This document shows positions 1 through 17,498 of a stretch of 17,563 nt of DNA, piece by piece; the stretch's first letter is position 1; every line of letters starts with the position of its first letter. The DNA comes from an uncultured Bacilli bacterium. Lineage in GTDB: Bacteria; Bacillota_I; Bacilli_A; RF39; UBA660. The stretch spans positions 1-17,563 of the forward strand of contig CALVSV010000070.1 of assembly GCA_944359595.1 (NCBI GenBank). Reading direction: 5' to 3'. The translations under genes were made by a program, and so were the position numbers. The notes beneath the pieces were generated by a model. The model was not told where the DNA came from, did not search any database, and saw only the letters and a list, made by a program, of their open reading frames with translations.

Positions 1-1246
1 TATATTGATAATATTAGCGATACAGTTGAAATAGATGATATAGTACCAATATATGATACTGAAATAAAGGAAAAAGCAAATAAATTTGCATTTAATATTG
101 ATAATACTGGAACATCACTAGCATATGTAGATATAAAATTAACAGATATAGTAATGGATCCAGAATTATCGAATTTAGAATTTAAATGGGCGCTATATTC
201 TGGAGATACAAAGATAAGTAATGGTAACTTTAGAAATGTCGCAAACAATGAATTATTACTAACAAAAAATATAGAGTTACCACAATTGGATAATAAAAAT
301 TACGAGTTATATATTTGGATAAGTGAAAATGATTTAGACCAAAGTATATTAATGAATAAAACATTTAGTTCTAAAATAACAGTAGAAGGTAATCAAGAAA
401 AGAGCGCAGACCTTTTATCAACAATAATAAAAAATAACAACAGTCCAATAGTTGAGACAACACCAAACTTTAACACTACAGCAACAACAGATGAAGGATT
501 AATAAAAGGTATTGATGACGATGGAGAAACATATTACTTTAGAGGAGCGGTAGAAGATAATTATGTAAAAATAGGGAATATGGAAACATTATGGAGGATA
601 GTCAGAGTAAACGGAGATGGCACAACAAGAATAATATCTGATGAAAAAGTAGGAAGTATTCAATTCAATTCAAGTTATAATAATGAAAAATATGTAGGCT
701 ACACATATGATAATAGCGCACCAAATGTGCAAGACGGAACAAATAGTAGGATTAAAACATATTTAGAAAATTGGTATACAACAAATTTAAGCGAATATGA
801 TAGTTTAATAGCTAATACTAGGTATTGTAACGATACTTCAGTATCAAGTGTATCAGGAAGCGAAATATATTATGGAGCATACGGAAGATTAGTTGATAAT
901 AAAACGCCACAATTTATGTGTCCGAACACAACAAAAACATATGGAGGAGAATATGATTTAAAGATCGGATTATTAACAGCGGACGAGGTAGCATTTGTAG
1001 GCGGAAAAATTTGGTTCTTATAACACTGACTACTATTTACAAAAAGGAAGCTATTATTGGCTGGGGACGCCTCTTTACTTCAGCGGTAGTTATGCTGGTT
1101 AGTTCGGTATCAATTATAATGGTCGTTGGGTCAGCGGTACTGTCGATATTGATGGCGGCGTGGTGCCAGTTATTAACTTAAAATCTGATGTTTTATATTC
1201 ATCTGGAGATGGCACTATTGATAACCCGTATATTTTATCTATATAA
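1..1246 (+). pseudogene. Surface protein with lectin-like C-terminal domain, 5'-truncated by the window and frameshifted
   Basis: The reading frame is open from base 1, so the gene begins before the window. The first ATG, at 154, is internal. An N-terminal beta-rich domain (to about 400) resembles the protein at 14950-15534. A second domain (about 480-1000) has the pattern of DUF6273/C-type-lectin-like surface domains: YYFRGAVEDN, then WRIVRVNGDG, then GLLTADEVAFVGG. The frame stops at 1021-1023. The rest of the domain continues in the next frame: YWLGTP, then PVINLKSDV, then GDGTIDNPYIL, with a stop at 1244-1246. Removing one A from the A5 run at 1005-1009 joins the frames as GGKFGSYN. A second lesion, TAG, lies at 1100-1102. 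Two lesions suggest a pseudogene, although A-run slippage or sequencing error could explain the first. Family naming is from memory of patterns. Surface location is inferred, as no signal peptide is visible in this fragment. Confidence 0.7.
1058..1169 (+). other. Candidate hypervariable segment (DGR variable-region-like)
   Basis: Read in the frame that restores the protein (codons at 1058, 1061 and so on), the 30 codons from 1070 to 1159 include 28 ending in C or T. The exceptions are TAG at 1100 and TGG at 1127. Elsewhere in the gene most codons end in A. By my count, 1058-1168 has 57 G+C of 111 bases and only 18 adenines. The 3' edge, 1154-1169, is very GC-rich (13 of 16) and precedes the conserved PVINLK segment. 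Adenine-specific mutagenic retrohoming turns AAY codons into NNY and removes adenines, which fits. No reverse transcriptase or template repeat lies in the window, so this is an inference. Confidence 0.45.
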
Positions 1247-15747: not shown

Positions 15748-15809
15748 AGGAATGATAGTTAATGAAAGAAGCGACTGGTGAATTAAATATGACTGTTATT
15801 GTTGTAATT
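15748..15809 (+). repeat. 5' end of pilin module 1, identical to 16599-16660
   Basis: 62 bp identical to 16599-16660 (offset 851). It covers the ribosome site AGGA, the spacer and the first 16 codons of the small pilin-like gene, after which the two copies diverge sharply. Outside both ends, similarity is lost at once. Confidence 0.95.
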
Positions 15810-16004
15810 ATAATTGCAGCACTTGCTGGTATAGGAACCTTAATTATTGTGCCTGCTGTATCTACTGGGGTTCGTAGTTCTTCTTGTAGATCAATATTAA
15901 ATGATGAAGGCGCAAGAGCGTTAAAAGATGGGGCAGGCGATTATTATTGTTGTCCTACAGGTACATCTGTAGTTGGTCCAACTTGTCAAATTATGGAAGA
16001 ATAA
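15762..16004 (+). CDS. Small pilin-like membrane protein, module 1
   Basis: 80 aa. A short N-terminus, MKEATG, is followed by a hydrophobic helix (about 9-31), then a small exposed domain with CCPTGTS and further Cys residues (Cys at about 42, 63, 64 and 75), probably disulphide-linked. The shape is that of Flp/type-IV-like pilins. No prepilin peptidase or ATPase gene lies in the window, so assembly into a pilus is inferred. The first 16 codons are identical in DNA to those of the gene at 16613. The ribosome site is AGGA about 10 nt upstream. It is followed 24 bp later by a TadE-like partner. The exposed parts share only the CCPxGxxxxxxxC pattern with the second copy. Confidence 0.7.
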   Translation: MKEATGELNMTVIVVIIIAALAGIGTLIIVPAVSTGVRSSSCRSILNDEGARALKDGAGDYYCCPTGTSVVGPTCQIMEE

Positions 16005-16028
16005 AAATATATGAGGAGATGATTATAT

Positions 16029-16501
16029 ATGCGTGAAGCAATTGGGAGTACTTTTATTTTTAAAATAGCAATATTTTTCATCTTCTTTTTTGTTGCATTT
16101 TTATCTATTGCAATAAATTATTCACAAGCGTTTAGAACAAAAAATGATATTATTAATCATATTGAACAGAGTGAAGGTATAAATAATACATCAAGAAAAA
16201 AATTTCTGATTTAGTGCTTGATAATGGTTATTATCGAGATGTAAGTTGTAATTGTGATGATATAAATTGTGAAGGCAAAATCGGTGAAAATCTTAATGGT
16301 ATTCATATTACCAATTTAGATGGAGCAGAAATTAATGGGGTATGTATTAGAAGATATAATGTTGATGTTGCAAGTAGTACTAGCGCTTATTATAAAGTAA
16401 CAACTTATGTTCATTTTAAATTGCCTATTATTGGAGAACTCTTTTCTATACCAGTAAATGGTGAAACAAAACTAATTGTTAATGATAATTATGAGCCTTA
16501 G
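16029..16501 (+). pseudogene. TadE-like pseudopilin, module 1, frameshifted in an A7 run
   Basis: The first part (16029-16214) reads MREAIGSTF, a hydrophobic segment (about 10-30), then INYSQAF and IEQSEGINNTS, closely matching the intact paralogue at 16956. It then stops early at TAG (16212-16214). The remainder lies in another frame: SDLVLDNGYYRDVSCNCDD, then INGVCIRR, then PIIGELFSIPVNGETKLI, ending at 16501. Adding one A to the A7 run at 16196-16202 restores one protein of about 158 aa. The GTG at 16214 is probably not a real start. The run may be a switchable tract, a decayed site, or a sequencing error. TadE-like naming rests on shape (one N-terminal helix, short ectodomain) and on the PIIG..PVNGET motif. 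Confidence 0.72.
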
Positions 16502-16502
16502 A

Positions 16503-16531
16503 TTTTACATGTAAAGAAAAACCATGTAAAA
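16503..16531 (+). terminator. Hairpin after module 1, possible terminator
   Basis: TTTTACATG (16503-16511) and CATGTAAAA (16523-16531) form a perfect 9-bp stem just after the stop codon. The tail is only moderately T-rich, so it may attenuate rather than fully terminate. Confidence 0.55.
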
Positions 16532-16546
16532 ATTATTTGAAAACTA

Positions 16547-16575
16547 TTGATTTAATTTTATTAATATTGTATTAT
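16547..16575 (+). promoter_or_regulatory. Promoter for pilin module 2
   Basis: TTGATT (16547-16552) and TATTAT (16570-16575) are spaced 17 bp, upstream of the gene at 16613. The same promoter is copied at 17445-17473. Confidence 0.65.
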
Positions 16576-16598
16576 TAGATTGTAAATAATTGTGAGAG

Positions 16599-16660
16599 AG
16601 GAATGATAGTTAATGAAAGAAGCGACTGGTGAATTAAATATGACTGTTATTGTTGTAATT
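16599..16660 (+). repeat. 5' end of pilin module 2, identical to 15748-15809
   Basis: Second copy of the 62-bp ribosome-site-plus-16-codon segment. It abuts the end of the 153-bp cassette, sharing the bases AG at 16599-16600, which defines the module junction. Confidence 0.95.
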
Positions 16661-16876
16661 GCCATAGCTGCCATAGCTGCAATATTCTATGTTTTTATTT
16701 GGCCAGCAATTCAAAGACAATTAATGACTAATACATGCGAAGCTACTTATGGTGCCGGATATCACGCTGAAGAAAGTGGCACTGATTATGATAGTGATGG
16801 AGCTGTTGTTCATACATGGGTATGTTGTCCTGAAGGTGAAACTAGTGGATCGAATTGTAAAGAAATGGCTGATTAA
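16613..16876 (+). CDS. Small pilin-like membrane protein, module 2
   Basis: 87 aa. It has the same MKEATGELNMTVIVVI N-terminus as the module 1 protein and a hydrophobic helix at about 9-31 (alanine-rich here). A different exposed domain contains TYGAGYHAEESG and DSDGAVVHTW, then CCPEGETSGSNC. The DNA is identical for 16 codons and then unrelated except for the CCP cysteine pattern. That suggests the exposed domain is replaced or diversified while the membrane part is kept. It is transcribed from the promoter at 16547-16575 and followed by an intact TadE-like partner. Pilus assembly is inferred from shape only. Confidence 0.72.
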   Translation: MKEATGELNMTVIVVIAIAAIAAIFYVFIWPAIQRQLMTNTCEATYGAGYHAEESGTDYDSDGAVVHTWVCCPEGETSGSNCKEMAD

Positions 16877-16955
16877 CGATTCATATAATAAATTGTGAAA
16901 AATTATTAAGTTCTATTACTTAGAAATTTAGAGTTATATTAGGAGATGAATAAAT

Positions 16956-17399
16956 ATGAGGGAATCAATTGGTAGTAGTTTTTTATTTCAAATTATGATA
17001 GTATTCATCTTCTTTTTTGCTGCATTTTTAGCTATAGCTATAAATTATTCACAAGCTTTTCAAATTAAAAATAAAGTAATAAACGCAATAGAACAGTCTG
17101 AGGGGTATAATGCTACATCACAAGAACGTATAGCTTCAATTAAAGAATCGAGTAGTTATTTTAGAGATATAAATCAAGCACAATGTGAAGCAAAACTAGG
17201 GAGTGATGCATTTGTACCACAAAATGAAGGCACTGCATTAAATGGAATATGTATATTAAGACATGATAATGGAGATGGGAAAGCATATTATACTGTTCAA
17301 ACTTATGTATGGTTTAATGTACCTATAATTGGTGATATTGCAACAATACCAGTAAATGGTGAAACAAAACTAATTGTTAATGATAATTATGAGCCTTAG
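16956..17399 (+). CDS. TadE-like pseudopilin, module 2 (intact)
   Basis: 147 aa. MRESIGSSF precedes a hydrophobic segment (about 10-32, with FIFFFAAFLAIAINYSQAF), then a short ectodomain with NKVINAIEQSEGYNATS, a FRDINQAQ stretch, INGICILRH-like LNGICILRH, and VPIIGDIATIPVNGETKLIV before the C-terminal NYEP. It is the intact counterpart of the broken gene at 16029; the last 18 codons are identical in DNA. AGGAGATGAATAAAT precedes ATG 16956, the same leader type as in module 1. The N-terminal M[KR]E[AS][TI]G pattern is shared by all four array proteins, including the partner pilins, which suggests one processing or export route. Confidence 0.72.
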   Translation: MRESIGSSFLFQIMIVFIFFFAAFLAIAINYSQAFQIKNKVINAIEQSEGYNATSQERIASIKESSSYFRDINQAQCEAKLGSDAFVPQNEGTALNGICILRHDNGDGKAYYTVQTYVWFNVPIIGDIATIPVNGETKLIVNDNYEP

Positions 17400-17400
17400 A

Positions 17401-17429
17401 TTTTACATGTAAAGAAAAACTATGTAAAA
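17401..17429 (+). terminator. Hairpin after module 2, possible terminator
   Basis: TTTTACATG (17401-17409) with TATGTAAAA (17421-17429). It is the same stem as in module 1, but with a G-U closing pair at its inner end. Confidence 0.5.
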
Positions 17430-17444
17430 GTTATTTAAAAACTA

Positions 17445-17473
17445 TTGATTTAATTTTATTAATATTGTATTAT
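17445..17473 (+). promoter_or_regulatory. Orphan copy of the module promoter
   Basis: TTGATT (17445-17450) and TATTAT (17468-17473), 17-bp spacing, identical to the module 2 promoter. No gene follows within the window; a short hairpin comes next. Confidence 0.55.
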
Positions 17474-17498
17474 TAGATTGTAAATAATTGTGAGAGAG

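Follow-up and report, generated by a model that had tools for sequence, protein, structure and literature searches.

What has depleted a 111-base stretch (1058-1168) of adenine, and put C or T at the end of nearly every codon, in a contig that is otherwise rich in adenine? The contig belongs to an uncultured Bacilli bacterium and was analyzed over its full 17,563 nucleotides, referred to here as the window. The original prediction took the stretch for the variable region (VR) of a diversity-generating retroelement (DGR), in the head of a lectin-like surface protein. Our analysis supports that proposal: six paralogs in the same genome share the codon register, homologs differ between template repeat (TR) and VR almost only at A, relatives carry DGR-type reverse transcriptases (RTs), and the fold of the domain agrees. 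It is very probable that the window stretch is the VR of a DGR target and that it forms the tip of a DUF6273-like (C-type-lectin-like) domain ending a membrane- or pilus-anchored surface protein. In such a system an error-prone RT would copy a TR of AAY codons (Y being C or T), miscopying A, and the cDNA would replace homologous gene sequence as far as a GC-rich CCAG edge. A template of AAY codons miscopied at A gives NNY codons, few A and a high GC content, and the same process probably made this VR. The DGR is of a known kind in a new host lineage, and what is interesting is the scattering of its targets and templates. That it should be an undescribed system was too strong a claim, as DGRs, remote targets and DUF6273 targets have all been published.

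The codon register and its paralogs

A recount agreed with the predicted codon pattern, with 28 of 30 codons from position 1070 ending in C or T (the exceptions are TAG and TGG). The composition of 1058-1168, put at about 51% GC and 16% A, measures 51.4% and 16.2%, compared with 23.6% and 40.5% for the whole window. This composition is extreme relative to the window: the 111-mer starting at 1058 is joint second-lowest in A (the lowest starts at 1057) and joint second-highest in GC (the top one starts at 1059). Given 42% Y-ended codons in the upstream open reading frame (ORF), the binomial probability of at least 28 in 30 is 5e-9 for a single stretch. Among the 34,946 starts on both strands, 1070 is the sole plus-strand start to reach 28 of 30, and 12 minus-strand starts reach it as well, so Y-ending alone is indecisive. 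The VR sits near the 3' end of its gene, and its GC-rich edge, GGCGGCGTGGTGCCAG, occupies 1154-1169, as expected of a DGR target; this run had been proposed as the 3' border, and TR/VR identity in relatives ends at the same CCAG.

The source draft genome comprises 1,187,218 bases in 166 contigs and is 92% complete. A search of it with positions 900-1250 gave 58 candidates, of which 40 were scored, and the query matches 20 places, itself included, in whole or in part. Six other copies (L002-L007) are in VR register, each on a contig other than that of the window (six contigs), which makes seven in-register targets, one per contig, in this genome. L003-L007 can be aligned with the window copy over 41 codons without a gap, and L002 is one codon short. 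Pairwise differences between the VRs of L003-L007 at codon positions 1, 2 and 3 are 0.385, 0.320 and 0.068, while those of the conserved domain upstream of the VR are 0.139, 0.108 and 0.275, as measured in six copies (L001, L002, L005, L006, L008 and L009; L003, L004 and L007 are cut there by contig ends). Ordinary divergence peaks at third positions, and an AAY template miscopied at A gives the reverse. Only 4 of the 71 invariant VR columns hold A. Among 386 genomes of the family the register pattern occurs in the source genome, G106 and G115 only, and a search of IMG/VR, by exact match only and thus liable to miss near records, found none. The parts of the window copy are as follows.

1..1023, plus strand: 5'-truncated target gene, with an N-terminal stalk and the conserved part of the lectin-like domain; the ORF is open from base 1 and stops at 1021-1023
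1003..1023, plus strand: frame break, the Y-ended VR frame differing from that of the upstream ORF; paralogs open here exist
1049..1169, plus strand: DGR variable region in the register common to L002-L007; its 5' edge is uncertain and its 3' edge is the CCAG of the GC-rich run
1100..1102, plus strand: in-frame TAG within the VR; the six in-register paralogs have none
1154..1169, plus strand: GC-rich 3' edge of the VR, IMH-like; it equals the end of TR/VR identity in relatives
1170..1246, plus strand: conserved C-terminal tail 3' of the VR, then a stop; the tail ends at 1246

The target domain is DUF6273-like, and both sequence profile and fold place it in DUF6273. No match was found for 1..1023 in Pfam at E 0.001, and a PDB sequence search at E 1 returned no chain. 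In fold searches the long model had no match at E 0.001, and the trimmed model had one match in PDB and 18 in a viral library; DGR target structures such as Mtd and TvpA are absent among the fold matches listed. Two further loci of the genome, L013:488-1612 and L020:1267-2610, encode a prepilin-type N-terminus fused to the same lectin-like domain, and may thus place a variable head on type IV pilus-like subunits.

Templates and reverse transcriptases in relatives

The motif IGxxxSQ is a hallmark of DGR RTs. A survey covered 291 genomes of the window's family, taken from a larger group, and 166 of them gave an RVT_1 match; an IGxxxSQ-type motif is present in 14 of 20 stretches around RTs that match from about profile position 8, and the 31 other RT loci that were scanned (L021, L030-L059) all lack it. 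The target alignment was also used to scan GTDB genomes, and of 110 confirmed stretches the best 79 loci were retained. Metagenome-assembled genomes (MAGs) titled Bacilli and named Lapin (presumably the French for rabbit) account for 66 of the 79, and a single MAG, CANQEJ01, contributes 17. Some of the homologous targets probably belong to the window's own family, three genomes of which (G099, G142 and G198) share TRs with genomes behind loci titled Bacilli (G333, G321 and G329). Three of these 79 loci contain an RT with IGxxxSQ (L088, L118 and L149); a fourth motif match, L131, is no RT by its motif. Locus L088 has the order target, TR, Avd-like protein and RT, and its VR differs from the TR at 20 of 37 A and at none of 76 other bases. 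The VR of L118 differs at 13 of 37 A and at 1 of 66 others, this non-A change being near the edge, a place that bears on the distinction of IMH from IMH*. In both loci TR/VR identity stops at the same CCAG as at the window edge. The Avd-like protein of L088 has a sub-threshold match to the NF033474 Avd model (17.9 bits; cut-off 80), and the scan found no TR in L149. The TR of L086 resembles the template inferred for the source genome, with the same run of AAY.

A short motif, CCAGATTCCTACTA, follows the TR with at most one mismatch in nine TRs of the fetched loci and in four distinct more (L192, L195, L197 and L202), loci with two handles for the same place being counted once; a further match, L198, is not TR-like. 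In L061, L064, L071, L076, L088 and L118 the conserved elements after the TR are CCAGATTCCTACTA/C and then GATTGGAAACAAGAT some 100-140 bases on, and these elements are probably part of the template RNA. Of 17 RT loci compared, 9 lack them, and the motif is not universal, with no match in 11 of the 20 target-bearing genomes; other searches revealed the DGRs of G115 and G106. In nine ungapped TR-VR pairs pooled, 142 of 312 template A are changed (59 to T, 60 to G and 23 to C) as against 6 of 534 other bases; the pairs were chosen for a VR in the same locus, ungapped and with at most four non-A changes, so the low non-A count comes partly from this choice and the A changes do not. The ungapped pair of L209 was left out on account of an indel. 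All nine targets match the profile of the lectin-like domain. The TRs of L064, L102, L192 and L197 had no VR at that setting; by eye L102 seems to differ by one codon, and L192 and L197 are near contig ends.

One pair of G106 behaves differently. Between L214 (TR) and L213 (VR), 15 of 31 A are changed, all to G, and 0 of 81 other bases; this bias sets it apart from the nine other pairs, where T, G and C all occur. The RT of G106 retains the FMDD motif. A DGR RT profile matches in 16 of the 20 target-bearing genomes (E 0.001), although several of the matches are broken and some of the weaker ones may belong to RTs of other kinds, and has no match in G316, G320, G323 and G328.

The source genome and its broken copy

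Several observations weigh against reading the window stretch as a DGR VR, and the first is that no DGR core was found. The register pattern found six VRs in the source genome and no all-A template, and BLAST with the inferred template gave 33 matches, with seven VRs and no TR among them; the next match after these seven (31 bases, E 0.0056) is not a TR, having plain A+T-rich surroundings without the conserved G and C of one. The post-TR motif reached two places with two mismatches, compared with three for the reversed control. A profile from 11 DGR RTs matched nothing in this genome at E 1, and an Avd profile that matches G106, G115 and G318 found none here; an Avd gene beside the RT is common in DGRs without being universal. 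The template and RT had been predicted to lie outside the window, and as neither was found in the assembled genome this placement can only be inferred. The check that the prediction proposed, a search of the rest of the genome for a template copy and an RT, thus returned six in-register VR paralogs, with no all-A copy and no DGR RT. We class the VR as that of a DGR target and do not credit the draft genome with a complete DGR.

Further points on the same side are that 13 of the 19 other matches of 900-1250 are without the full register, being divergent or cut, and that, 9qa6 excepted, the Z values of the lectin matches are middling, in a range where chance matches are common. The window copy itself is out of frame and has a stop within the VR. 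It had been said that the Y-ended frame continues the protein, but the upstream ORF stops at 1021-1023 and the Y-ended frame is another one, with the TAG at 1100-1102. L003-L007 have 67 invariant columns other than A, and the window VR departs from them at 6, one of these departures creating the TAG; the five copies themselves depart at 0 to 4 of 67-71 such columns, counted against four references each and so not strictly comparable with the window count. Among the in-register copies it is the window copy that strays furthest from the shared register. It is probably a target out of the rewriting cycle, a relic since the frame loss and stop. Other targets are also broken: L010:1501-1844 has an in-frame stop just 5' of the VR, and the target of G099 (L071) is in two frames, the change lying just upstream of the VR.

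A variant of this explanation is that the DGR core (RT, Avd and TR) has been lost from the lineage and that all the VRs are drifting relics, the window copy being the furthest along. This is possible, though we lean against it. Several searches of a draft this complete turned up no part of the core, the window copy is broken and other paralogs are without the register, 4 of the 20 target-bearing relatives likewise have no DGR RT match, and isolates of Treponema denticola are reported to keep targets without RT and TR (PMC4891356). However, the few non-A departures of L003-L007 favor recent rewriting. In addition, 15 of the 20 matches lie no more than 1.1 kb from a contig end, as expected because repeats break assembly, and a TR locus is what such an assembly would lose.

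It is unlikely that the living cell has an intact version of the window copy and that the frame break and stop are assembly errors from a population of mixed VR variants. The gene is cut by a contig end, DGR targets are mixed in populations, and paralogs may be confusable in assembly; against this, the break and the stop are separate, the six non-A departures, TAG included, fit decay, and L010 and L071 are broken as well. That an ordinary paralog family was diversified by positive selection and gene conversion, with no retroelement involved, is most improbable, for while no DGR RT or TR was found in the source genome and the conserved blocks flanking the VR could convert, selection on amino acids does not hold the third base constant in each column, third positions change most in the control region of this gene family, and for the homologs there are physical templates from which almost only A has changed.

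A PF00078 search of the source genome found one RT, which is retron-type (Ec107-like by its PADLOC model) and lies on contig C98, the window being on C70. Although it too is a reverse transcriptase, it has QGAPTSS instead of IGxxxSQ, the ORFs listed around it include no target gene, and its motif and neighbors rule it out as the enzyme of the window system. In its locus (L021:1-2187) the RT is followed by an 86-aa protein and then a HELFH-motif protein, neither with a Pfam or PADLOC match at E 0.001; this is possibly a retron with an unusual effector. In the window, the target copy is followed by what are probably the housekeeping genes for serine hydroxymethyltransferase and FolD. Far downstream, 15748-16600 and 16599-17498 form a tandem duplication of a pair of small membrane-anchored genes, pilin-like by eye, with blocks 76-88% identical.

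Dispersed parts and known systems

Dispersed DGR parts are evident in relatives. In G318 (1.0 Mb) TR-target cassettes are found on C8, C11 and C17 (L194, L200 and L202) with no local RT, an ungapped VR match exists for C11 and C17 only, and two TRs differ by one base in 100 compared; the sole DGR RT match, with Avd, is on a fourth contig, C16 (L167), where the post-TR motif was not found. In G106 the TR is on C2 near 219.2 kb, the matching VR on C1 near 246.5 kb and the Avd-RT pair on C2 near 36 kb. In G115, VR, TR, Avd and RT are clustered at the beginning of a single contig, and other contigs bear three further VR-like stretches. These dispersed parts make trans action likely in this family. 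It is quite possible, if not quite probable, that the DGR has come apart in these Bacilli and become genome-wide, one Avd-RT operon serving in trans both several solo TR-target cassettes and many template-less targets with stalk or prepilin anchors. Under the main explanation, independently of this, the seven genes on seven contigs of the source genome have very probably been rewritten from templates of one register; template and RT would act in trans and would be missing from the assembly or lost, and the head may bind a varying ligand on host cells, neighbors or phages.

Comparable cases have been published. Treponema denticola belongs to a different phylum from the window organism and reportedly has fewer targets per genome. 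Its DGR has C-type-lectin-fold and remote targets and several TR variants, and some isolates have kept targets while lacking RT and TR (PMC4891356). The tentaclins of gut phages are DGR targets whose VR is borne by the same DUF6273-like domain resembling a C-type lectin (PMC10743442); they are receptor-binding proteins in phage genomes, whereas the window copy has probable housekeeping genes after it and its paralogs are stalked or prepilin-like. Dispersed C-type-lectin paralogs are described in Thiohalocapsa PB-PSB1, together with incomplete DGR loci and a trans action deduced from complete agreement at non-A sites (PMC10907252), and, with remote targets, in cyanobacteria (PMC7517822). Those are conflict and signaling proteins of multicellular bacteria and cyanobacteria, in contrast to the Bacilli drafts of about 1-1.5 Mb studied here. 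One TR with many VRs has also been published (PMC6642488). Our literature searches gave no description of DGRs in this lineage among the papers listed, no text with both DGR and RF39 among the 20 listed of 216, and none with both "diversity-generating retroelement" and "TasA".

Surveys that need a VR beside an RT miss targets such as these, and the global DGR survey would not detect remote targets by its own statement (PMC8144416). Even with neither template nor RT at hand, a lone or broken VR can be recognized by its codon register when paralogs are compared. If one operon does serve scattered targets, one cell would show a whole panel of variable heads, and if one RT serves dispersed surface lectins in Bacilli of about 1 Mb, a small genome would be partly spent on a variable surface repertoire.
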